NCBI GenBank assembly: GCA_016219375.1
Contig: JACRNC010000007.1
Coordinates: 62,001 to 126,000, forward strand
Direction of reading: 5' to 3'
From: Burkholderiales bacterium
GTDB lineage: Bacteria; Pseudomonadota; Gammaproteobacteria; Burkholderiales; Burkholderiaceae_C
DNA: 64,000 nt
Of this stretch, positions 1,101-44,446 are shown piece by piece; positions within the stretch are counted from its first letter, which is position 1; the number at the start of each line of letters is the position of its first letter. The position numbers and the translations under genes were made by a program. The notes beneath the pieces are model-generated. The model saw only the letters and a list, made by a program, of their open reading frames with translations, ran no database searches and was not told the DNA's origin.

Positions 1101-2537
<1,437 letters not shown>

Positions 2538-2718
2538 CCACCGGGCATTGGCCACCCCCGGCGGCCTGCGGCCGGCTTGCAGCCTGCGCCGACCGGGGGA
2601 GGCGGGTCGGCTCGGCGCAGGCTCGGCCCCGCTCAAGGGCTGACCGGGTCCTCGCTCGGCCCGATGCCTGATGCGAAGGCCGGCGCTTCTTTGCCTTCCG
2701 TTGCTTTCCTTGAACCCC

Positions 2719-3498
2719 ATGCCCCGCATCGACCAGCTCCTCGTGCAGCGCGGCCTGGCGCCCAGCCGCTCGGCCGCGCAGCGGCTGATCGAACGCGGCG
2801 CCGTGCGCTGGCTCGGCCCGCAAGGCTGGCAGGTGCCGCGCAAGGCCGGCGACGAGCTGCCCGAGCGCTGCGAGCTGCAGGTCACCGACGACGCCGAGCT
2901 GCGCTGGGTGTCGCGCGGCGGGCTCAAGCTCGAAGGGGCGCTGGCGCACACCGGGCTCGACGTGGCCGGCCGCGTGGCGCTGGATGCCGGGCAGAGCACC
3001 GGCGGCTTCACCGATGTGCTGCTGGCCCGCGGCGCGGCGCGCGTGGTGGGCTTCGATGTCGGCCACGGCCAGCTGCATCCGCGCCTGCAGGCCGATGCGC
3101 GGGTGGTGGCGCTGCAAGGCCTGCACGTGCGCGAGCTGGCCGGCTCCGCGCTGGCGGCTCACGCACCGGCCGGCGGCTTCGACCTGCTGGTGGCCGACCT
3201 CGCCTTCATCCCGCTGGCCGGCTGCATCGCCCACTTGGCGCCGTGGCTGCGGCCGGGTGGCGATGCGCTGCTGCTGGTCAAGCCGCAGTTCGAGCTGGGC
3301 CCGGCGCACGTGGGCAAGGGCGGCGTGGTGCGCGACGAGGCCTCGCGCCTGGCCGCCCGGCAGGCCGTGCGCCAGGCCTGCGAGGCGGTGGGCTGGACCG
3401 TGGTGGACGACTTCCCCAGCCCGATTGCCGGCGGCGACGGCAATGCCGAGTTCTTCATCCACGCCCGGGCCGGCGGCGATGCACGCGCGCCGGGCTGA
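2719..3498 (+). CDS. tlyA: TlyA-family rRNA (cytidine-2'-O)-methyltransferase
   Basis: A 259-residue protein with an N-terminal S4 RNA-binding domain (RIDQLLVQRGLAPSRSAAQRLI, residues ~3-25) and an FtsJ-type SAM-dependent methyltransferase domain. The SAM-binding signature is DAGQSTGGFTDVLL and the conserved KPQFELGP segment lies near residue 190. The family includes the mycobacterial 16S/23S rRNA 2'-O-methyltransferase, long annotated as a haemolysin. The rRNA target here is inferred. The ATG at 2719 was chosen because the S4 domain starts immediately after it; an ATG at 2671 would add 16 unconserved residues. It lies between ahcY and metF, consistent with a methyl-cycle operon. Confidence 0.9.
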   Translation: MPRIDQLLVQRGLAPSRSAAQRLIERGAVRWLGPQGWQVPRKAGDELPERCELQVTDDAELRWVSRGGLKLEGALAHTGLDVAGRVALDAGQSTGGFTDVLLARGAARVVGFDVGHGQLHPRLQADARVVALQGLHVRELAGSALAAHAPAGGFDLLVADLAFIPLAGCIAHLAPWLRPGGDALLLVKPQFELGPAHVGKGGVVRDEASRLAARQAVRQACEAVGWTVVDDFPSPIAGGDGNAEFFIHARAGGDARAPG

Positions 3499-3570
3499 GG
3501 CCGATGCGCACCGTGGAGACGCCCGCTCCGTCCGGCCGACGCACACACCGATACGCCTGAAAGACACGCC

Positions 3571-4416
3571 ATGAGCGACGCCTTCCCGATCAGCATCGAG
3601 TTCTTCCCGCCCAAGACGCCGGAGGGTGCCGACAAGCTGGCCGCCGTGCGCCAGGAGCTCTACACGCTCCAGCCGCAGTTCTGCTCGGTCACCTATGGCG
3701 CGGGCGGCACCACGCAGTCGGGCACGCTGGAGACGGTGCGCGCCATCCTGGCCGAGGGCGTGGACGCCGCGCCGCATTTCTCGTGCATCGGCGCCACCAG
3801 AGCCAGCGTGCGCGAGCAGCTGGCGCAGTTCCGCGCCGCCGGCATCCGCCGCATCGTGGCCCTGCGCGGTGACCTGCCGTCGGGCTACGGCTCCGGCGGG
3901 CTGGGTGACTTCCAGTACGCCAGCGACCTGGTGGCCTTCATCCGCGCCGAGCATGGCGATGCCTTCCACATCGAGGTGGCCGCCTACCCTGAGATGCACC
4001 CCCAGGCCGCCTCGCCCCAGGCCGATCTGCAGGCCTATGCGGCCAAGGTGCGCGCGGGGGCCAGCTCGGCCATCACGCAGTACTTCTTCAATGCCGACAG
4101 CTACTGCCGGTTCGTCGAGGACACGCGGCGGCTGGGCCTGGACGTGCCGGTGGTGCCGGGCATCATGCCCATCACCAATGCCACGCAGCTGCTGCGCTTC
4201 TCGGACGCCTGCGGCGCCGAGGTGCCGCGCTGGATCCGCCTGCGCCTGCAGGCCTATGGCGACGACCGGGCGGCCATCCAGGCCTTCGGGCTGGACGTGA
4301 TCACCGCGCTGTGCGAGCGCCTGCGCCGCGAGGGCGCGCCGGGGCTGCACTTCTATTCGATGAACCAGGCCGGGCCCACGCTGGCCCTGTGCCGCCGGCT
4401 GGGGCTGGGCGGCTGA
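3571..4416 (+). CDS. metF: 5,10-methylenetetrahydrofolate reductase
   Basis: Flavoprotein that reduces 5,10-methylene-THF to 5-methyl-THF, the methyl donor for homocysteine methylation. The 281 residues match the bacterial MetF length. Recognisable segments are EFFPPKTPEG at the N-terminus, SVTYGAGGTTQSGT, the ALRGDLPSG loop, EVAAYPEMHPQA, ITQYFFNADSYCRFVE and HFYSMNQAGPT near the C-terminus. It starts 72 bp after tlyA. Being behind ahcY and its riboswitch, it may share the SAH-responsive transcript, so recycled homocysteine and its methyl donor would rise together; co-transcription is an inference. Confidence 0.97.
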   Translation: MSDAFPISIEFFPPKTPEGADKLAAVRQELYTLQPQFCSVTYGAGGTTQSGTLETVRAILAEGVDAAPHFSCIGATRASVREQLAQFRAAGIRRIVALRGDLPSGYGSGGLGDFQYASDLVAFIRAEHGDAFHIEVAAYPEMHPQAASPQADLQAYAAKVRAGASSAITQYFFNADSYCRFVEDTRRLGLDVPVVPGIMPITNATQLLRFSDACGAEVPRWIRLRLQAYGDDRAAIQAFGLDVITALCERLRREGAPGLHFYSMNQAGPTLALCRRLGLGG

Positions 4417-4845: not shown

Positions 4846-7131
4846 ATGCCCCGCTCCCGCCCCTGGCGCCTGCCTGTGCGCAGCCTGGTGTTCTACCTGG
4901 CGGTGCTGACCAGCGTGCTGGCCGTCGGGCTGGTGCTGGTGGAGCAGGGCATCCGCCGGCAGGTGGCCGTCGAGCTCCACAACGATCTCAATGCCGGCCA
5001 GCGCGCCGCCGGGCTGCTGTGGTCGCCGGTGGTGGCCCCCGGCCTGCCGGCCGCCGCGCGGCTGCGCGAGCTGCAGGCGCTGGCTGCCACGCAGGCCGTG
5101 CTGCTGCAGCGGGCGCCGCAGACGCTGCAGCTTGCCGGCCATGCTGCCGGCGCAGCCGCATCCGAGGCCGCTGCCGTGCCGGCGCTCGCGGGCCAGGTTG
5201 CCAGCCAGGTTGCTTCTCGACTCCCCGCCCAACCCGCCGCCCAACCCCCCGGACAACGCGCCCCGCTGGCCGTCGCCCAGGCCCGCACCACGGCGGGCGC
5301 AGGCGGCGCCACGGATCCCGGCTGGCAGATCGTGGCCGCCACCGTGCCCGCGGCGCTGGCCCGGGACGTGGCCCGCTGGCGTGCGCACCCGGCCGTCGCG
5401 CCCGAGCCCGGCAGCCTGGCGCTGCTGGACGGCGAGCGCTATGCCCTGCGCATCGTGCAGCTGCCGGCCTCGGCCGGCGGGCGGGCCGCGCCCGGCGCCG
5501 GGCCGTCACTGGTGCTGCTGCGCTCGGTGCGCGAGGTCTCGGCCAGCCACGACGCGCTGCGCTGGACGCTCTTCGGCCTGCTTTTCCTGGCCCTGGCCGT
5601 GCTGGCCGGCGGCGCCGCGTGGCTGACCCGGCGCGTGGTGCGCCCGCTGCGCGCGCTGGCCGAGTCGGTGCACCGCCTGGGCAGCGGCGACTACTCCACC
5701 CCCGTGCCCCTGGGCGATGCCCATGCCCTGGGTGCGCTGGCCCAGGCCATCGAGGCCATGCGCCTGGGCGTGATGCACCGCGAAAGCGAGATCCGCCGCC
5801 TGGCCTTCCGCGACGGGCTCACCGGCCTGCCCAACCGCGAGCAGTTCCGCGCCGACGTGCGCCAGGCCATCGAGCAGGCCGTGGCCAGCGGCAAGCCCTG
5901 CACCGTGCTCATGCTGGATCTCGACCGCTTCAAGCACGTCAATGACGTGCTCGGCCCGCGCCTGGGTGACCGGCTGCTGCAGCTCGTGGCCCAGCGGCTG
6001 CGCGACGCGGTGCTCTCGCCCGATCACCGCCTGGCCCGGCTGGGCGGCGACGAGTTCGCCGTACTGTTGCCGGCTACCGACCCCGCCGGCGGCCTGGTGG
6101 TGGCCCAGCGCATCCTCAAGAGCTGCGAGCGGCCGATCACCCTCTACGACCACACCGTGGACCTGGGCGCGGGCATCGGCATCGCCAGTGCGCCGGCCCA
6201 CGGCCGCGACGCGGACGAGCTGCTCAGCCATGCCGAGGTGGCCATGTATGCGGCCAAGCACCAGCAGGCCGGCACCGTCACCTATCACCCGGGGCTCGAT
6301 TCATCCAGCCAGGAGTCGCTGACCCTGCAGGGCGAGCTGCGCCAGGCGGTGGACCAGGGCCAGCTGCAGATCTGGCTGCAGCCCAAGGTCAGCCTGCTCA
6401 GCGGCCAGGTCATCGGCGCCGAGGCCCTGCTGCGCTGGCAGCACCCCGATCGTGGCCTGGTGCCGCCGATGCGCTTCATCCCCTTTGCCGAGCAGACCGG
6501 CTTCGTGCGCATCCTCACCAGCTGGATGATCGAGCGCACGGCCCTCACCTGGCGGTCGCTGCGCGCGCAGGGGCTCAATCTCAAGTTGTCGGTCAACCTG
6601 TCCACGCGCGACCTGATGGACCAGGAGCTGCCCGACAAGGTGGCGCGCCTGCTGGCCGCGCATGCGGTGGAGCCCGGCGCGCTGTGCCTGGAGATCACCG
6701 AGTCGGCCATCATGGACGACCCCCAGCGCGCGCTGGCCACGCTGGAGCGTCTGCATGCGATGGGCCTGCGCCTGTCCATCGACGACTTCGGCACCGGCTA
6801 CTCGTCGCTGGCCTACCTCAAGCGGCTGCCGGTCGATGAGCTGAAGATCGATAAGTCCTTCGTCATGAACATGGAGTCGGACCTGAGCGACGCCAAGATC
6901 GTGCGCTCCACCGTCGATCTGGCGCACAACCTGGGCCTGGCCGTGGTGGCCGAGGGCGTGGAGAACGCCAAGGCCTGGAAGCTGCTGTCCGGCCTGCGCT
7001 GCGACGAGGCCCAGGGCCACTTCATCGCCCGCGCCATGCCGGTGGACACCTTCGTGCAGTGGGCGCGCCTGTGGGCCCCGCCGCACACGGCCGACGAGCG
7101 GCTGGGGACCGAGTTCGCGGCGATGCTCTGA
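4846..7131 (+). CDS. Membrane GGDEF-EAL dual-domain c-di-GMP protein
   Basis: A 761-residue signalling protein. A basic start (MPRSRPWRLPVR) leads into a first membrane helix. A Pro/Ala-rich periplasmic region of about 200 residues, a second helix (LFGLLFLALAVLAGGAAWL) and a HAMP-like linker follow. The GGDEF domain has the intact signature RLGGDEFAVLLPAT. The EAL domain has EALLRWQHP, the DDFGTGYSSLAYLKRLP loop and DELKIDKSFV, so both cyclase and phosphodiesterase activities are possible. No RxxD I-site lies five residues before GGDEF. The ATG at 4846 was chosen because it directly precedes the membrane helix; a GTG at 4807 would add 13 residues. The net direction of activity cannot be told from sequence. 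Confidence 0.93.
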   Translation: MPRSRPWRLPVRSLVFYLAVLTSVLAVGLVLVEQGIRRQVAVELHNDLNAGQRAAGLLWSPVVAPGLPAAARLRELQALAATQAVLLQRAPQTLQLAGHAAGAAASEAAAVPALAGQVASQVASRLPAQPAAQPPGQRAPLAVAQARTTAGAGGATDPGWQIVAATVPAALARDVARWRAHPAVAPEPGSLALLDGERYALRIVQLPASAGGRAAPGAGPSLVLLRSVREVSASHDALRWTLFGLLFLALAVLAGGAAWLTRRVVRPLRALAESVHRLGSGDYSTPVPLGDAHALGALAQAIEAMRLGVMHRESEIRRLAFRDGLTGLPNREQFRADVRQAIEQAVASGKPCTVLMLDLDRFKHVNDVLGPRLGDRLLQLVAQRLRDAVLSPDHRLARLGGDEFAVLLPATDPAGGLVVAQRILKSCERPITLYDHTVDLGAGIGIASAPAHGRDADELLSHAEVAMYAAKHQQAGTVTYHPGLDSSSQESLTLQGELRQAVDQGQLQIWLQPKVSLLSGQVIGAEALLRWQHPDRGLVPPMRFIPFAEQTGFVRILTSWMIERTALTWRSLRAQGLNLKLSVNLSTRDLMDQELPDKVARLLAAHAVEPGALCLEITESAIMDDPQRALATLERLHAMGLRLSIDDFGTGYSSLAYLKRLPVDELKIDKSFVMNMESDLSDAKIVRSTVDLAHNLGLAVVAEGVENAKAWKLLSGLRCDEAQGHFIARAMPVDTFVQWARLWAPPHTADERLGTEFAAML

Positions 7132-7188
7132 CGCGGCGCGGCCAAGCGCCGGCGCGCTCGGATCCGCGCCCGCTGCGCTGCCTGCCGC

Positions 7189-7719
7189 TCAGCGCCCGTC
7201 GCGGTCGATGCGCTCCAGCAGGCCCTGCAGCGCCCGCACCACCGTCTGGCCGCGCACCGCGGCGCGGTCGCCGTCCAGGTGGCAGCACTCAGCCTGCGCC
7301 GCTTGGCCGCATTGGGCCCAGGCGATCCACACCGTGCCCACCGGCTTGTCCGGCGTGCCGCCGTCCGGCCCGGCGATGCCGGTGACGGCCACCGCCCAGT
7401 GCGCGCAGGGCTCACCGTTGTCGCGGGCGCCTACGGCCCGCAGCGCGCCTTCGGCCATGGCCAGCGCCACCGGCTCGCTGACCGCGCCGTGCTTGTCGAT
7501 CAGATCGGCCGGCACGCCCAGCATCTGCGTCTTGGAGTCGTTGCTGTAGGTGACGAAGCCGCGCTCGAAGGTGCTGCTGGAGCCGGGCACGTTGGTCACG
7601 CAGCCGGCGATCAGCCCGCCGGTGCAGGACTCGGCCGTCACCATCTGCTCGCCACGGGCTTTCAGCCGATCAGCTACCCGCTGCACCAGCACGCGTATGT
7701 CTTCACCGATCTCGATCAC
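7189..7719 (-). CDS. pncC: Nicotinamide-nucleotide amidase (CinA C-terminal family)
   Basis: Deamidates nicotinamide mononucleotide to nicotinate mononucleotide, returning DNA-ligase-derived NMN to NAD synthesis. The 176-residue protein is a stand-alone CinA C-terminal domain without the N-terminal MoCF-like part of full CinA. It carries the catalytic AESCTGGLIAG segment (residues ~29-39), a GFVTYSNDSK segment and the VTGIAGPDGGTPDKPVGTV loop. It is the last gene of a minus-strand set thiL-pgpA-pncC, an order common in betaproteobacteria. Confidence 0.93.
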   Translation of the reverse strand: MIEIGEDIRVLVQRVADRLKARGEQMVTAESCTGGLIAGCVTNVPGSSSTFERGFVTYSNDSKTQMLGVPADLIDKHGAVSEPVALAMAEGALRAVGARDNGEPCAHWAVAVTGIAGPDGGTPDKPVGTVWIAWAQCGQAAQAECCHLDGDRAAVRGQTVVRALQGLLERIDRDGR

Positions 7720-7816
7720 GGACTGCTCCTGTCGTTGATGGCTGCCTATTGAGATAGATGGGAGATGGCTGCCCGTTGATGATGCCGATGGATCTTGACG
7801 GCCGCCCGCTTCAGGC

Positions 7817-8371
7817 TCAGAGCGGGCGACGCAGGGCGACGAAGAGCGCCAGCATCAGCAGCGTGCAGCCGGCAGCCACCAGGTCGTCGATCAGGATGCC
7901 CCAGCCCTCGCGCCAGCCGATGCGTCCGCCGCGCGGCTGGATCAGCCGGTCGGCCCAGCCCACCGGGCCGGGCTTGGCCGCATCCAGCCAGCGGAACAGC
8001 ACGAAGGCGGCAAGCTGCATGCCGAAGCCCGCCGGCATCAGCACCCACAGCACCAGCCAGAAGGCGATCACCTCGTCCCACACCACCTGCCCGGGGTCGC
8101 TCGTGCCCAGGTTGCGCGCCGTGACCGTGCAGGCCCAACAGCCCACCGGCAGCGCCGCAGCCAGCACCCAGGCCCATTGCCGCTCGGTGAGCCACAGGTC
8201 GAAGACGATGAAGGCCAGCCATGCCCACAGCGTGCCCACCGTGCCCGGCGCGACTGGGCTCAGCCCGCTGCCCGCGCCCAGCGCCAGCCAGTGCGCCGGG
8301 TGGCTGCACAGGAAGCGCCAGTCGGCGCGGCGCGGGGCGTCGGCGGCAGTCGTGGAGAGGTCGGTGCTCAT
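7817..8371 (-). CDS. pgpA: Phosphatidylglycerophosphatase A
   Basis: Dephosphorylates phosphatidylglycerophosphate to phosphatidylglycerol in the inner membrane. The 184 residues include GSGLSPVAPGTVGTLWAW near the N-terminus and WDEVIAFWLVLW in the middle, both characteristic of PgpA, plus several hydrophobic helices. It lies between thiL and pncC, with about 100 bp on either side, and is probably co-transcribed with them. Confidence 0.95.
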   Translation of the reverse strand: MSTDLSTTAADAPRRADWRFLCSHPAHWLALGAGSGLSPVAPGTVGTLWAWLAFIVFDLWLTERQWAWVLAAALPVGCWACTVTARNLGTSDPGQVVWDEVIAFWLVLWVLMPAGFGMQLAAFVLFRWLDAAKPGPVGWADRLIQPRGGRIGWREGWGILIDDLVAAGCTLLMLALFVALRRPL

Positions 8372-8446
8372 CGGCTCAGCAGGGCGCAGGGATGGTGAGA
8401 AGGGGCGGGCGAGGCGGGCAGGGCAGTCGCCGGGCGGTCGGCTGCC

Positions 8447-8485
8447 GTCAGCGGAAGTGGTCAGCCGAAGTGGTCAGCGAAAGTG
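8447..8485. repeat. Three tandem copies of a 13-bp repeat over the thiL stop codon
   Basis: GTCAGCGGAAGTG (8447-8459), GTCAGCCGAAGTG (8460-8472) and GTCAGCGAAAGTG (8473-8485) are adjacent. The complement of the TCA in the last copy (8474-8476) is the thiL stop codon. The period is not a multiple of three, so extra copies would leave the protein end unchanged. Confidence 0.9.
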
Positions 8486-9436
8486 GTCGAAGGACGCCGC
8501 CTCGTGCACCACCGGCCGGCCCTGCGCGTCGTGCAGGCGCAGTCCCGGCCCGGCCGCGATGCGCCCGATGCGCGTGACGGCCGTGCCGGCGGTCAGCTCG
8601 GCCTGGTGCACGGCGGCTCGCAGCGCAGGCGGTGCGGTGAACAGCAGCTCGTAGTCATCGCCGCCCGTCAGCGTGCACAGGCGCTGCAGGGTGGCCGGCT
8701 GGCGCGCCAGCACCGGGCCGCGCGGCACGGCGTCCGCATCAAGCTCGGCGCCCACGCCGCTGGCCTTCAGCACATGGCCCAGGTCGCCCAGCAGCCCGTC
8801 GGACACGTCGATCGCGCTGCTGGCCACGCCGCGCAGCGCCTGCCCCAGCAGCACGCGCGGCTGCGGCAGCTCCAGCGCCGGCCGCACCGCGTCGAAGTCC
8901 CGCCCGTCCAGCGACATCGCGCCGCGAAAGGCCTCCAGCGCCAGCCGCGCATCGCCCAGCCGGCCGCTGATCCAGATGTCGTCGCCCGGCCTGGCCCCGC
9001 TGCGCAGCAGGGCGGCGCCCGCCGGCACCTGGCCGAAGACGGTGATGTTGATCACCAGCGGCCCGGCCGTGGTGTCGCCGCCGACCAGGTCGCATTCGTG
9101 CTCGTCGGCCAGCGCCAGCAGCCCGCGCGCGAAGCCGGCCAGCCAGGCCTCGTCCACCCTGGGCAGCGACAGGCTCAGCGTGAAGGCCAGCGGCTCGGCG
9201 CCGCAGGCGGCCAGGTCGCTCAGGTTGACGGCCAGCGCCTTGTGCCCGAGCCGGTCCGCTGGCACGGTGGACAGGAAGTGCCGGCCCTCGACCAGCGCGT
9301 CGGTGGAGACGGCCAGCTGCTGCCCGGCGGCGGGCGCCAGCAGCGCGCAGTCGTCGCCCCCGCCCAGCACCGCGCGCGGCGCCGGCCGGCGGAAGTACTG
9401 CTCGATCAGCTCGAACTCGCCCAGGCTCATGCCCAC
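8474..9436 (-). CDS. thiL: Thiamine-monophosphate kinase
   Basis: Phosphorylates thiamine monophosphate to the coenzyme thiamine pyrophosphate with ATP. The 320-residue protein belongs to the PurM/SelD fold. It shows GGGDDCALL near residue 25, VSTDALVEGRHF near 44, GGDTTAGPLVINITVFG near 118, AIDVSDGLLGDL near 206 and TGGDDYELLFT near 260, which carry the metal- and nucleotide-binding acidic residues. The start MGMSLGEFELI has an alternative methionine two codons in. First gene of thiL-pgpA-pncC, divergent from maeB. Confidence 0.96.
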   Translation of the reverse strand: MGMSLGEFELIEQYFRRPAPRAVLGGGDDCALLAPAAGQQLAVSTDALVEGRHFLSTVPADRLGHKALAVNLSDLAACGAEPLAFTLSLSLPRVDEAWLAGFARGLLALADEHECDLVGGDTTAGPLVINITVFGQVPAGAALLRSGARPGDDIWISGRLGDARLALEAFRGAMSLDGRDFDAVRPALELPQPRVLLGQALRGVASSAIDVSDGLLGDLGHVLKASGVGAELDADAVPRGPVLARQPATLQRLCTLTGGDDYELLFTAPPALRAAVHQAELTAGTAVTRIGRIAAGPGLRLHDAQGRPVVHEAASFDHFR

Positions 9437-9476
9437 ATTGTCGACCGCGGCGGCGGCCTGGCGGGCACGCCCTTCC

Positions 9477-9482
9477 TACAAT
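9477..9482 (+). promoter_or_regulatory. Candidate -10 element for maeB
   Basis: TACAAT matches the -10 consensus at five of six positions, lies between the divergent thiL and maeB genes, and would give a leader of about 60 nt for maeB. No good -35 partner was seen, so the call is tentative. Confidence 0.35.
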
Positions 9483-9547
9483 GCCTGTTTTTGGATTGGG
9501 CCAGCCCGCGCCGTGGTCCGCGCGCGTGGGCAGCCGCCCCAGCTGCG

Positions 9548-40773: not shown

Positions 40774-41502
40774 TCAGCCGCGCCGGCGGCGGGCCACCCA
40801 GGCGGCACCGGCCAGGCCCAGGCCGACCAGCGCATAGGTGCTGGGCTCCGGGATCGGCGCAATGCCGATGGCGGCCAGGTAGAAGGACTCCGGCGACGCC
40901 TGCGAGAAGCCGATGCGGAAGGTCGTGCCCTGCAGGCCGCTGGCGCCCAGGATGCGCGGCTGGCCGTTCTGCAGGCCGAACAGCGCCCGCTGCGTCGGGC
41001 CGCCGTCCACGCTGATGGTGAACTCGTCGAAGGCGTCGAGCTCGCCGTTGGGGCCGGTCAGCGAGCCCTTGAAGCGGTCGTCCGGGAAGAACCACAGCGA
41101 GTTCAGCGTGACCGCCTTGCTGAAGCTGAGCACCAGGTTCTCAGCCGGCGCGCTGACCGACGGGTTGACATCGGCCGCTCCCAACAGAGACGTGCCGGTC
41201 AACACGCCCAGGCCGCTGTTCTTCAGCGAGCTCTGTTGCACGTAGGCCATCTTGTCGAGCAACAGGTTGTCTTCGGCCGTCACGGTCAGCTTGCCGCCCG
41301 TGGTGGTGTTGAAGGTCAGCCGCTCGGGGCAGGTGCCAATCAGGCAACCGTCCTTGCCGCCGGCGGTGCCCGTCACCTTGCTGGACGGCAGGGTGATGAC
41401 GTTGCTGGTGGTGAAGCTTAGGTATTCGGTGGCGGCCGTGGCCGGTAAGGCCAGTGCCGCGGCGGCGGCCAGCGCGGCGATCTTCAGGCTTGCATTGAAC
41501 AT
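40774..41502 (-). CDS. PEP-CTERM sorting domain protein
   Basis: A 242-residue exported protein. The signal peptide (LKIAALAAAAALALPATAA) is followed by a beta-rich extracellular domain, and the C-terminus is a complete PEP-CTERM tag: PEPSTYALVGLGLAG, a membrane helix, and the basic end WVARRRRG. In bacteria with exosortase EpsH/XrtA the tag is cleaved after sorting to the cell surface, often alongside exopolysaccharide. The ATG at 41502 has a GGAGGGG Shine-Dalgarno and begins the signal peptide. It is followed by a strong terminator, so it is monocistronic. The domain function is unknown. It diverges from the Slam-type pair. Confidence 0.92.
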   Translation of the reverse strand: MFNASLKIAALAAAAALALPATAATEYLSFTTSNVITLPSSKVTGTAGGKDGCLIGTCPERLTFNTTTGGKLTVTAEDNLLLDKMAYVQQSSLKNSGLGVLTGTSLLGAADVNPSVSAPAENLVLSFSKAVTLNSLWFFPDDRFKGSLTGPNGELDAFDEFTISVDGGPTQRALFGLQNGQPRILGASGLQGTTFRIGFSQASPESFYLAAIGIAPIPEPSTYALVGLGLAGAAWVARRRRG

Positions 41503-41886
41503 ATGTCCCCTCCGGTTTTGATGGACGCATACGGATACGCGTGTTGCAAGCCTAGCGGCAGCCCATCCCGCGCCGCTGTTCGTGCCCTCCCCGCGATCGC
41601 GGGGGAAAAGGCGGCCGGCCATTCGACTGGCGCCATTGCACAAGCCAGGCCCCTGGGGCAGACCCTAGGCTGCACGGCCGTGGTGCCGTCCAGCCGCAGG
41701 ACCAGCCCAGCGCAGATCGCACCCGCGCGCGATGCATGAAGGCAACGCCTGACCCCCTGAATGGGAGTCCATCCATGCGAGCGTGATCTTTGACAATCCC
41801 ACGAACATGAACGTATCAAAAAGTAGCGGAGGCGCCGCACCTGCTGCAGTGGGCAGCACGGACCGGTGGCGCCATCCGGAGCAGAC
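41503..41886. other. Divergent intergenic region between PEP-CTERM and Slam-type genes
   Basis: About 384 bp, visibly less GC-rich at its right end. It contains the plus-strand promoter candidate at 41790-41819. I looked for a sigma-54 GG-N10-GC element in front of the PEP-CTERM gene, as known from other PEP-CTERM genes, and saw only poor matches. No protein-coding gene is supported. Confidence 0.5.
41790..41819 (+). promoter_or_regulatory. Promoter of the Slam-type operon
   Basis: TTGACA, a perfect -35 hexamer, lies at 41790-41795. With an 18-bp spacer TATCAA follows at 41814-41819 as a four-of-six -10. The local base composition is A/T-rich for this genome, and the downstream gene starts about 68 bp later. 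No Fur-box palindrome was recognised. Confidence 0.6.
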
Positions 41887-43209
41887 ATGACCGCACACCA
41901 ACTGACGACCCGTCGCACCGCCGCACCTCGCGCCTCCCTCCTTCGCAAGCCCGCCGCTCTGGCGCTGGCCGCCTTCCTGTCCACCCTCGCCGGTGCCGCC
42001 TGCGCCGCCGGTGCCTCCACGCAGGACAACGACAACTACCGCCAGGCCCTCTACCTGCGCGAGACCGGCCAGCCCTATGCGGCCATCGAGTCGCTGGAGG
42101 CCCTGCTGGCTGCGAGCCCCACGCTCAACCGCGCCCGGCTGGAGCTGGCCGTCGCCTACTACCGCACGCTGGAGTTCACCAAGGCCCGCGCCCAGGTGCA
42201 GTCGGTGATCGACGACCCGCAGACGCCGGAGGCCGTGCGCCTGTCGGCCCTGTCCTTCCTGAAGAAGCTGGAAGTCGAGCAGGCCAGCCTGTTCGGCCAG
42301 CCGCACCGCCTGGACGCATCGGTGTCGCTGGGCCTGCTCTATGACGACAACGTCACCGCCGGCCCGACCAACGCCCTGCTGCCCAACGGCCTGGTGCTGA
42401 CCCCCGGCAGCCTCAAGGACGGCGACTGGGGCGCAGTGGCCCAGGGCTCGCTCACCCACACCTGGACGCGCAGCGCGCCGGTGCGCCTGGGCCAGTCCGG
42501 CGCCGGCCGCTTCTCCTGGGTGTCGCAGCTGGGCCTCTATCACAAGGCCTACAGCGACCTGGACGACTACAACCTGAGCGTGCTGACCCTGGCCACCGGC
42601 CCGGCGCTGCTGACCCAGGGCGGCGTGCGCGCCAATCTGAACCTGCAGGTGGACCAGCTGCGCCTGGGCGACGAGAACCTGGGCCGCTTCACGACGCTGT
42701 CGCCCTCGGTCGCGCTGCGCGTGGGCCAGGGCGAGCTGAGCATCGACGCCCAGTGGTCGCACCGCGACTTCGAGCGCAGCATCGACAGCGGCCGCAGCGG
42801 CTACTACCGCGCGCTCAGCCTGAGCTACGGCCATGTGCTGGCCAATGGCCGGCTGGCTCTGCAGGGCGGCCTGACCGGCTTTGCCGAGGCTGCCGCGGCC
42901 GACCAGTACACCAACAACGGCATCGAGGCCTTCGCCGGCGCCCGCCTGCGTGCCTGGGACGGCGGCGACCTGTTCGCCCGCGCCGCCTGGCGCCAGGCCC
43001 GCTACGACGGCCTGGTGCCCACCTTCGACGAGGCCCGTCGCGAGATCGAGCGCCGCGCCGAGCTGGGCGCCAGCCACCTCTTCGCCGCCGGCCCGCTGGA
43101 CAAGTGGCAGCTCTCCGGCACCGTCACCTACATCCGCAACAGCGCCAACGTCGAGCTCTATACCTACGACCGCACGATCACCTCGATCACGCTGGGCCGC
43201 AGCTTCTGA
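41887..43209 (+). CDS. Slam-type outer-membrane protein (TPR plus beta-barrel; type XI secretion)
   Basis: A 440-residue precursor. A signal peptide (PAALALAAFLSTLAGAACAA) is followed by TPR-like helices (residues ~45-135: NYRQALYLRETGQPYAAIES, LLAASPTLNRARLELAVAYY). A C-terminal beta-barrel follows, with the motif LGLLYDDNVTAGP and alternating strands to the terminal phenylalanine (SITLGRSF). This TPR-barrel architecture is that of surface lipoprotein assembly modifiers (Slam, DUF560), which move client proteins across the outer membrane. ATG 41887 has a GGAG site six bases upstream; a GTG at 41866 is less likely. The next gene looks like its client. No biochemical specificity can be read. 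Confidence 0.82.
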   Translation: MTAHQLTTRRTAAPRASLLRKPAALALAAFLSTLAGAACAAGASTQDNDNYRQALYLRETGQPYAAIESLEALLAASPTLNRARLELAVAYYRTLEFTKARAQVQSVIDDPQTPEAVRLSALSFLKKLEVEQASLFGQPHRLDASVSLGLLYDDNVTAGPTNALLPNGLVLTPGSLKDGDWGAVAQGSLTHTWTRSAPVRLGQSGAGRFSWVSQLGLYHKAYSDLDDYNLSVLTLATGPALLTQGGVRANLNLQVDQLRLGDENLGRFTTLSPSVALRVGQGELSIDAQWSHRDFERSIDSGRSGYYRALSLSYGHVLANGRLALQGGLTGFAEAAAADQYTNNGIEAFAGARLRAWDGGDLFARAAWRQARYDGLVPTFDEARREIERRAELGASHLFAAGPLDKWQLSGTVTYIRNSANVELYTYDRTITSITLGRSF

Positions 43210-43259
43210 CCGGCCAGCGGCGCTGCCGGCCGCAACCATCCTCTCAACAGGAGACCGCC

Positions 43260-44342
43260 ATGAACCGCTCCATCCGCTTCCTTCCCCGCCGCGCCACCGC
43301 GCTGGCCGCGGCCCTGCTGGGCTGCTGGGGTGCGGCGCAGGCCGCCGCCACCGCCGAGCAGCTCGGTGCCGTCAAGCTCTACGGCGACACCACCATCGCC
43401 CAGGACCGCGTGGACCGCTGGGGGCCGTGGGAAGAGTTCGAGCCGCCGGCGGCCGGCCCGCTGGGCTACACCGCGGCCAATCTGCAGTTCCAGCGCGAGG
43501 CCTACCGGCCGCTGGCCACCCCGGAAGACCAGCCGCAGCCGCCCCAGCCGCCTGAAGTGACCGCGCTGCTGTGCGCCGCGGGCAGCCTGTGCGGCTATGG
43601 TCTGCAGGGCGTCATCAGCCGTCCGTCCAACGAGGAAGTCAGCGAAGCCGCGGTGGTGGCCTCGACCACGCTGCATCTCATCACCCTGGAGCGCGGCGTC
43701 GTGGAGAACGATGACGGCTCGCCCGCCACGCCTCGCCTGGCCATCCGCCTGGATCAGCTGCCGCAGGGCGTCTCCGAGACCGGCTCGCTGCTCGCGGTGC
43801 TCAATGGCGCGAACGAGACCTTCTATGGCTCGGCCGACTACAAGACGCAGGCGCTGCTGGTGCTGCCCGCCGAGGACGCCGACCATGTGACCGACGACCT
43901 GAACTTCTTCCTGTCCTCCTATGTCGAGGGCAGCGAGGGCTCGACCCAGCGTCAGCTGGTGGGCGTGGTGGGCCGGGTCACCAGCACGTCTGACATGGAC
44001 GCGCTGCGCATCGAAGGGCAGCAGGCCACCTACCGCGGCTGGGACTACCACCAGCAAAGCGGGCAGATGGGCAGCGTCGCCATCGACGTGAACTTCGGCA
44101 GCGGCACCTTCAGCTATGCCACCGAAGGTGGCGTGCAGAGCTACCAGGCCCAGGGCGTGATCCGCGGCTCCGGCTACGTCGCCACGTCCTTCAACACGGC
44201 CAACACCAGCGGCACGCTGCAGGGCAACTTCATCGGCTCCAATGCCGCCGGCACCGTGGGCGGCGCCAGCGTGACGCAGAACGGTGTGACGGCCAATACG
44301 GTGCACGTCACCCGCCGGGTGTTCGAGGAAGTGCCGCGCTGA
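43260..44342 (+). CDS. Putative Slam-dependent surface or secreted protein with TbpB-like C-terminal barrel
   Basis: A 360-residue exported protein starting 50 bp after the Slam-type gene, with an AGGAG site seven bases before its ATG. The signal peptide ends ALLGCWGAAQAAA: LLGC is a possible weak lipobox and AQA a possible signal-peptidase-I site, so it may be lipidated or soluble. The middle has no recognised domain but holds a CAAGSLC pair. The last ~80 residues contain the strand pattern GSGTFSYATEGGVQSYQ and GTLQGNFIGSNAAGTVGG. The latter matches the LxGxFxGxNAxxxGG motif of TbpB-like barrels found in Slam clients. Ligand unknown. Confidence 0.72.
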   Translation: MNRSIRFLPRRATALAAALLGCWGAAQAAATAEQLGAVKLYGDTTIAQDRVDRWGPWEEFEPPAAGPLGYTAANLQFQREAYRPLATPEDQPQPPQPPEVTALLCAAGSLCGYGLQGVISRPSNEEVSEAAVVASTTLHLITLERGVVENDDGSPATPRLAIRLDQLPQGVSETGSLLAVLNGANETFYGSADYKTQALLVLPAEDADHVTDDLNFFLSSYVEGSEGSTQRQLVGVVGRVTSTSDMDALRIEGQQATYRGWDYHQQSGQMGSVAIDVNFGSGTFSYATEGGVQSYQAQGVIRGSGYVATSFNTANTSGTLQGNFIGSNAAGTVGGASVTQNGVTANTVHVTRRVFEEVPR

Positions 44343-44420
44343 CGTGCAAGGCAGGCCGGGCGGCCTGCCTGGTTCCTCAGGCCCTCAGGGCCACGGGCCA
44401 AGCGGCCCGCACAGCAAAAA

Positions 44421-44446
44421 GGCCGGGCAGATGCCCGGCCTTTTCT
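44421..44446. terminator. Bidirectional terminator between the Slam-type operon and pntB
   Basis: GGCCGGGC (44421-44428) pairs with GCCCGGCC (44433-44440) around AGAT. TTTTCTCTTTTT follows on the plus strand and AAAAA precedes it, giving a T tract on the minus strand too. It can end both the 43260-44342 transcript and the pnt transcript. A second stem, GGCAGGCC/GGCCTGCC at about 44348-44367, precedes it. Confidence 0.9.

Follow-up and report, generated by a model that had tools for sequence, protein, structure and literature searches.

Two adjacent genes on the forward strand of a 64,000-nucleotide stretch of DNA from a Burkholderiales bacterium (contig JACRNC010000007.1, positions 62,001 to 126,000, referred to here as the window) very likely form a self-contained, divergent type 11 secretion system (T11SS, Slam-type) pair, which consists of an outer-membrane gate and an exported protein. 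The first gene, the translocator, runs from an ATG at 41887 to a stop at 43209, and the second, the cargo gene, from an ATG at 43260 to a stop at 44342, leaving a gap of 50 nt. These open reading frame boundaries bear out the coordinates and spacing given by a first-pass annotation of the DNA, which had interpreted the genes as a Slam-type pair. That interpretation is supported because both architectures could be modelled, the pair is co-conserved and the Pfam families SlipAM and TbpB_B_D match relatives of the two proteins; it is refined here to a divergent branch. Membership in the T11SS is based on structure, pairing and linked homology, not on a direct SlipAM score. Architecture, folds, pairing, co-occurrence and relative divergence were computed. 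The window belongs to a genome of 3.58 Mb, and all features of the pair described below lie on the plus strand.

Architecture of the translocator and the cargo

The translocator (41887–43209) is a predicted outer-membrane protein of the T11SS/Slam type, 440 residues long with an N-terminal signal-like sequence, an assignment that draws on its relatives and on an AlphaFold2 model. The model, built from a 16-row alignment, has a mean predicted local distance difference test score (pLDDT) of 85.5. Its helices at residues 45–135 (42019–42291) are assigned as periplasmic tetratricopeptide repeat (TPR) helices, in agreement with sub-cut-off TPR matches, and its 14 long strands at residues 140–439 (42304–43203) as a 14-stranded beta-barrel, in agreement with Foldseek; an additional strand of three residues is placed at 199–201. 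The first-pass annotation had staked its reading of the first protein on a TPR-plus-barrel architecture, and this is what the model contains. Slams are described as having TPRs and a predicted 14-stranded barrel (PMC5449769).

The sequence link to Slam and T11SS outer-membrane proteins (DUF560, Pfam SlipAM PF04575 and TPR_Slam PF24575) runs through relatives of the translocator. At E ≤ 1 TPR_Slam matches all 16 translocators of the clade to which the window protein belongs and SlipAM matches four (best E-value 0.0012), so that the SlipAM model overlooks most of this Aquabacterium-like branch. When 22 distant relatives are added, SlipAM matches 21 of 38 proteins at the same threshold (best 5.1e-18); the alignment of distant translocators, A3, holds 22 of 25 sequences, L012, L019 and L023 being omitted. 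The profile comparison with DUF560 proposed at first pass gave no match for the window protein itself but did so for some of its relatives, and we regard the window translocator as a divergent branch because it scores nothing with SlipAM. Its model shares the TPR domain and the 14-stranded barrel with the known family, and its gene likewise adjoins one for a TbpB-barrel cargo. It differs in forming its own branch (100/100), apart from the strong SlipAM group, and in going unrecognised by SlipAM.

In Foldseek searches of the Protein Data Bank (PDB) porins rank first for the translocator. The best target template modelling (TM) scores among the 50 matches listed are 0.72 for 2iwv (OmpG) and 0.68 for 2x9k (named as 'a E. 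coli porin'), both with a root-mean-square deviation (rmsd) of 5.1. OmpG is a 14-stranded barrel. Two sequence searches of the PDB with the translocator returned nothing in one case and TPR proteins in the other. TPRs joined to a barrel are also found in exopolysaccharide exporters of the PgaA, BcsC and PelB type, and the Foldseek matches include PelBC and BcsC. It is nevertheless highly improbable that the translocator is such an exporter and the cargo a polymer-associated lectin, given that the best target TM among the matches listed belongs to OmpG, that no polysaccharide synthase is present among the eight window neighbours scanned, and that each of the 16 pairs has a homologous partner whose barrel is of the T11SS-cargo type.

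The cargo (43260–44342) is a 360-residue protein, predicted to be exported. In its AlphaFold2 model residues 243–353 (43986–44318) form a helix followed by eight strands, with block pLDDT values of 79–94 over residues 241–350. The solved folds that rank highest in Foldseek are holo HphA, TbpB, an fHbp chimera and apo hemophilin, and NHBA-C is matched with a target TM of 0.78–0.80 and an rmsd of 1.9–2.3 over 114–115 columns; the query-normalised TM of the fold matches is only 0.21–0.33. The eight-stranded C-terminal barrel, the second feature on which the first-pass annotation depended, is therefore present in the model and resembles the TbpB, fHbp, NHBA and hemophilin folds. Its suggested comparison with TbpB-like families had a mixed outcome: the window cargo stays below the cut-off, but TbpB_B_D is found in 15 of the 16 cargos of the clade at E ≤ 1 (best 1.9e-9). 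Sequence searches of the PDB with the cargo gave nothing meaningful. On the basis of the model, the Foldseek matches and TbpB_B_D in the relatives, this part of the protein is likely to be the export domain.

The barrel contains the motif LQGNFIGSNAAGTVGG (44217–44264, residues 320–335), which corresponds to the L-x-G-x-F-x-G-x-N-A...GG motif reported at first pass. Its core, G.F.G..A, is present in 14 of 15 relatives, the exception being L048 with AAFYGMQA. F324, G326, A329 and G334 are invariant in all 16 cargos and G322 is conserved in at least 90%.

Two further regions precede the barrel. The conserved N-terminal region, residues 30–115 (43347–43604), is defined by invariant columns in the 16 cargos (Y41, D49, W54, G55, W57, E61, A64, G66, Y82 and R83) and follows the pattern ..IAQD..WGxWexFEPPAAG..YRP..CxxGxLCGxG, with the cysteines C105 and C111 present in 15 of 16. 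The middle of the protein, residues 116–225 (43605–43934), is hypervariable by pairwise identity and is a candidate effector region. Among the closest known proteins are the soluble TbpB_B_D cargos (TXISS-1B; Hpl/HphA, HrpC and CrpC), which likewise have a signal peptide, a single C-terminal eight-stranded barrel and no conserved lipid anchor. The window cargo differs from them in its extra conserved N-terminal region and its roughly 110 hypervariable residues, in belonging to a family with no conserved histidine and in lacking a TonB receptor among those window neighbours that were scanned.

Several results weigh against the assignment of the pair to the T11SS. No TPR model exceeds its cut-off in the window translocator, TPR_19, TPR_16 and TPR_Slam (E 5.6e-5) all falling below it; SlipAM/DUF560 has no match to the protein even at E ≤ 10, and a six-frame SlipAM search of the window genome was empty. 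The top folds for the translocator are porins, with no Slam named among the 50 Foldseek matches listed. Over its full length the cargo model is weak, with a mean pLDDT of 64.5 and values below 50 across most of residues 56–100 and 174–214; unrelated barrels (a DUF3598 protein and BFA1) are also found among the 50 cargo fold matches listed, and TbpB_B_D on the window cargo alone reaches E 0.02. In addition, the signal peptide of the cargo contains an LLGC string, which may yet act as a lipobox in this single species.

Conservation and divergence of the pair

A scan of genome contigs with the translocator alignment identified 15 loci, in Aquabacterium and in unclassified Burkholderiales or Comamonadaceae, whose translocators are 44–62% identical to that of the window. 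A single-sequence scan of the contigs for cargo relatives found none. In all 15 loci a cargo homologue lies directly downstream, on the same strand and in the same order, at a distance of 13–52 nt.

Profile searches of 42 genomes of the same genus found translocator and cargo in an identical set of 22, the remaining 20 having neither (hypergeometric probability 1.9e-12, a value that ignores shared descent). These 22 genomes contain 23 adjacent pairs, 17–59 nt apart as measured between match ends, with one genome carrying the pair twice. The two genome sets overlap (L034/G693, L044/G241 and L047/G033), and the profiles were partly built from the same genomes. Wherever this two-gene system is found in Aquabacterium-like genomes it is paired. 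When 299 genomes of the family were searched with single sequences, the cargo was found in three, belonging to one of 141 genera, and relatives of the translocator in 29; no cargo was seen outside the genus in these searches. A tandem duplicate of the pair is present in L102, where positions 1415–4043 and 6892–9520 are offset by 5477, agree at 3092 of 3300 compared bases and score alike.

The first-pass annotation had suggested a comparison of the neighbouring genes in relatives. Frames of at least 110 codons around the 16 loci, some of which lie on short contigs, were clustered, and only the pair and antisense frames recur in all 16, the next clusters recurring in just six and five.

The two proteins have diverged to different extents. 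The 16 loci give 120 pairwise comparisons, which are not independent of one another. In these the translocators have a median identity of 55.8% (71% in the TPR domain and 53% in the barrel) and the cargos one of 34.5%, with 46% over residues 30–115, 17% over residues 116–225 and 41% over residues 226–360. The translocator is the more conserved of the two in 120 of the 120. Translocator and cargo identities are correlated (0.87), which common descent alone could produce.

Processing and possible function of the cargo

The cargo signal peptide, residues 1–28 (43260–43343), was delimited by eye and from conserved alanines. The first-pass annotation had noted both a lipobox and an AQA site in it, and both strings are present: LLGC ends at residue 22 and is followed by a probable signal peptidase I site with AQA before the cleavage point and an alanine behind it, again identified by eye. 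A28 is invariant and A26 is conserved in at least 90% of the 16 cargos. The lipobox, scored with our own regular expression over the same 16, is not conserved in the relatives; it occurs just ahead of the cleavage region in the window cargo alone, VAAC is found at residue 13 in L043 and L047, and 13 cargos lack any such pattern. LLGC was for this reason rejected as the default processing site, and the conservation pattern makes it most likely that the cargo is soluble rather than a lipoprotein, with signal peptidase I favoured.

Soluble cargos processed by signal peptidase I are a described class of T11SS cargo (PMC8406197). The same source reports lipidation for 75.1% of the cargo linked to subcluster 1A, to which the characterised systems belong. 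Together with the LLGC string this would fit a surface lipoprotein of the strict Slam kind, with cleavage at LLGC by signal peptidase II, acylation and flipping to the outer leaflet. We consider this distinctly improbable, since only the window cargo has the lipobox pattern just before its AxA site, since AQA comes after LLGC within it, and since HphA, which is secreted despite a lipobox in its signal peptide, provides an example of an unused one (PMC8560813). The surface lipoproteins TbpB, fHbp and NHBA share the barrel fold with the window cargo, whose family differs in having no conserved lipobox and one barrel only. Host ligands such as those of TbpB, fHbp and NHBA are not expected for an environmental bacterium.

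Translocation itself, its direction, the processing site and the nature of the ligand are what we infer from these results. Sec would carry the cargo across the inner membrane, where signal peptidase I would cut behind AQA. The TPR domain and 14-stranded barrel of the translocator may then recognise the periplasmic cargo, mainly through its C-terminal helix and eight-stranded barrel, and the cargo would move outside, to be released or retained on the surface, no lipid anchor being involved. The N-terminal region (WGxW...FEPPAAG and the C-x5-C pair) and the hypervariable middle would provide the outward-facing, ligand-binding or adhesive part.

We favour viewing the cargo as a binding protein, either surface-held or released, whose effector region changes fast. 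A possible though somewhat doubtful form of this, which is compatible with T11SS export, is an adhesin or matrix protein held non-covalently at the surface and binding surfaces or other cells. The hypervariable middle region would suit such a role, as would orphan proteins with PEP-CTERM-like tails that share the end of the barrel in three genomes; against it, Pfam gives no adhesin domain in the cargo.

A secreted hemophore system of the hemophilin/HphA type, capturing haem or metal from outside, is less likely again. Holo HphA is the best solved fold for the cargo, and several T11SS cargos are reported to bind haem or metal (PMC12282271, PMC8560813). HphA binds haem through two histidines (PMC8560813), but at no position do as many as 11 of the 16 cargos share a histidine, and six mature cargos contain a single one. 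No haem or TonB gene is found among the eight scanned window neighbours. TonB receptors are present in all 42 genomes of the genus, but none of the matches listed (the strongest of 415) is within 40 kb of a pair on its contig, the nearest of them being at about 46 kb (G701 and G716); the neighbours of relatives were clustered rather than annotated. The variable half of the cargo also has no reliable model. The absence of a conserved histidine and of haem or TonB genes among the eight neighbours argues against a hemophilin operon, and a haem operon in the window was rejected on these grounds. The results do not indicate an operon for haem or for polysaccharide at the pair.

FecR-domain partners, related loci and flanking features

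The most interesting part of the wider family lies beyond the window, in FecR-barrel proteins and in orphans with PEP-CTERM-like tails. Of 399 genomes sampled from the order, 92 contain SlipAM. From the weaker SlipAM rows, with E-values between 2.2e-16 and 2.5e-9, we chose 20 loci, each from a different genome, leaving out fragments and the rows G377, G414, G638, G631, G396, G498 and G427 of the same range; the survey of partners covers these weaker rows, the partners of stronger rows lying outside it. In 19 of the 20 loci (exception L098) the translocator is followed, on its own strand, by a frame matching the FecR profile, at offsets of at most 323 nt; in L095 this frame overlaps the translocator as called. 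A profile built from the C-terminal region is matched as well by the FecR frame in 15 of the 20, and four of these 15 (L087, L090, L091 and L096) did not contribute to that profile. Among 26 loci of the family with a translocator match, a FecR frame is present in 22, several of the called starts reaching into the translocator; of the other four, L012 and L023 leave almost no room for one and L026 and L029 show none. The FecR partners in L010 and L025 have proline-rich tails and no barrel.

In the aligned set of 19 chosen FecR proteins (A7) Pfam finds FecR in all 19 and TbpB_B_D in one, at 0.0048. When the C-terminal parts of the cargos and of 17 FecR rows (the profile from A7 omits L080 and L091) are compared by hhalign, the probability is 94% (P 1.1e-7), against at most 2% for eight decoy comparisons; the cut was picked after a weak result (10%) with whole alignments of the cargo and six FecR proteins, and the control with both sides reversed gave 93%, as expected. 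The FecR-domain proteins behind SlipAM in other Burkholderiales thus share gene order and a C-terminal region that aligns with the cargo barrel, and differ in that an N-terminal FecR domain replaces the N-terminal region of Aquabacterium. These proteins (L079–L098 and L007–L033), many of which have a barrel-like C-terminal region, probably represent a T11SS cargo architecture. FecR is not among the ten cargo architectures of a 2025 survey, and 'fecr' does not occur in its main text, supplements aside (PMC12282271). Our search of the literature, mostly of open papers and leaving aside the contents of papers on Lysobacter lysochelin, Leptospira biofilm, the Legionella secretome and an anammox proteome, found no description of a FecR-type T11SS cargo. 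It also found nothing joining Aquabacterium with TbpB, or PEP-CTERM with DUF560.

In a tree of 70 translocators the 16 Aquabacterium rows form one clade (100/100) and 34 FecR-paired rows another (100/100), and a 100/100 branch splits both clades and three f44 rows from 17 stronger-scoring rows. Rows were omitted by choice (L026), for a length above 620 residues (L061 and L065), as the same places as L079–L084 (L073–L078) or for lack of a match (L070 and L072). The placement of the Aquabacterium clade is less sure because of its long stem (1.54). An origin of the Aquabacterium translocator from inside the FecR-paired clade was rejected, the tree giving two separate clades.

There is about an even chance that the pair belongs to a large, largely undescribed T11SS branch of environmental Burkholderiales. 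Here a single C-terminal export barrel would be combined with exchangeable outward modules, namely the hypervariable WGxW/C-x5-C type in Aquabacterium and FecR in many other lineages, along with orphan clients that have PEP-CTERM tails and are encoded at other places in the genome. If true, the T11SS would be a general delivery route of free-living betaproteobacteria and not chiefly a means of host-nutrient piracy. According to the 2025 survey only seven T11SS translocators are experimentally verified, all of them from animal-associated cluster 1 (PMC12282271). The pair and the FecR partners offer concrete test cases for the identity of the export signal and for the role of the T11SS outside animal hosts.

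Some related loci have further features of note. In L069 a FecR-type frame with a proline-rich tail is found upstream, not downstream, of the SlipAM gene. In L071 the gene upstream of the SlipAM gene (2902–3840, minus strand) ends in a barrel-like stretch with GAFFGPQA, its frame being cut at the locus edge. Long, repetitive adhesin-like frames stop 8–10 nt upstream of the translocator homologue in L011 and L027, which have a FecR-type frame downstream; these two loci possibly link T11SS-like barrels with large adhesin loci. Three orphan exported proteins (L099:794–1612, L100:2263–2847 and L101:1523–2398) match the final strands of the cargo barrel, where they read SGAFFG.. or AGAFFG.. in sequence. 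They come from three genomes of the genus, carry a PEP-CTERM-like C-terminal tail and lie on contigs other than that of the pair. It is possible that they are second clients or exosortase-anchored relatives.

The first-pass annotation had placed a perfect -35 box ahead of the pair and a terminator behind it. TTGACA is present at 41790 but carries no weight as promoter evidence and was discarded as such, because the window contains six copies against 8.1 expected by chance and a promoter scan of the region gave no passing sigma-70-like site. A terminator-like hairpin of 12 pairs was found by a hairpin scan at 44417–44444, behind the pair, shuffles of the region yielding 0.9 such sites; it may also serve the convergent pntB gene. 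In the interval from 37.4 to 48.4 kb, the eight neighbouring genes that were scanned encode HlyD-type, AMP-binding, PEP-CTERM, PntB, PNTB 4TM, aspartate decarboxylase, PntA and NUDIX proteins. The PEP-CTERM protein (Pfam PF07589, E 2e-7) is encoded at 40774–41643 on the minus strand, where it divergently adjoins the pair.

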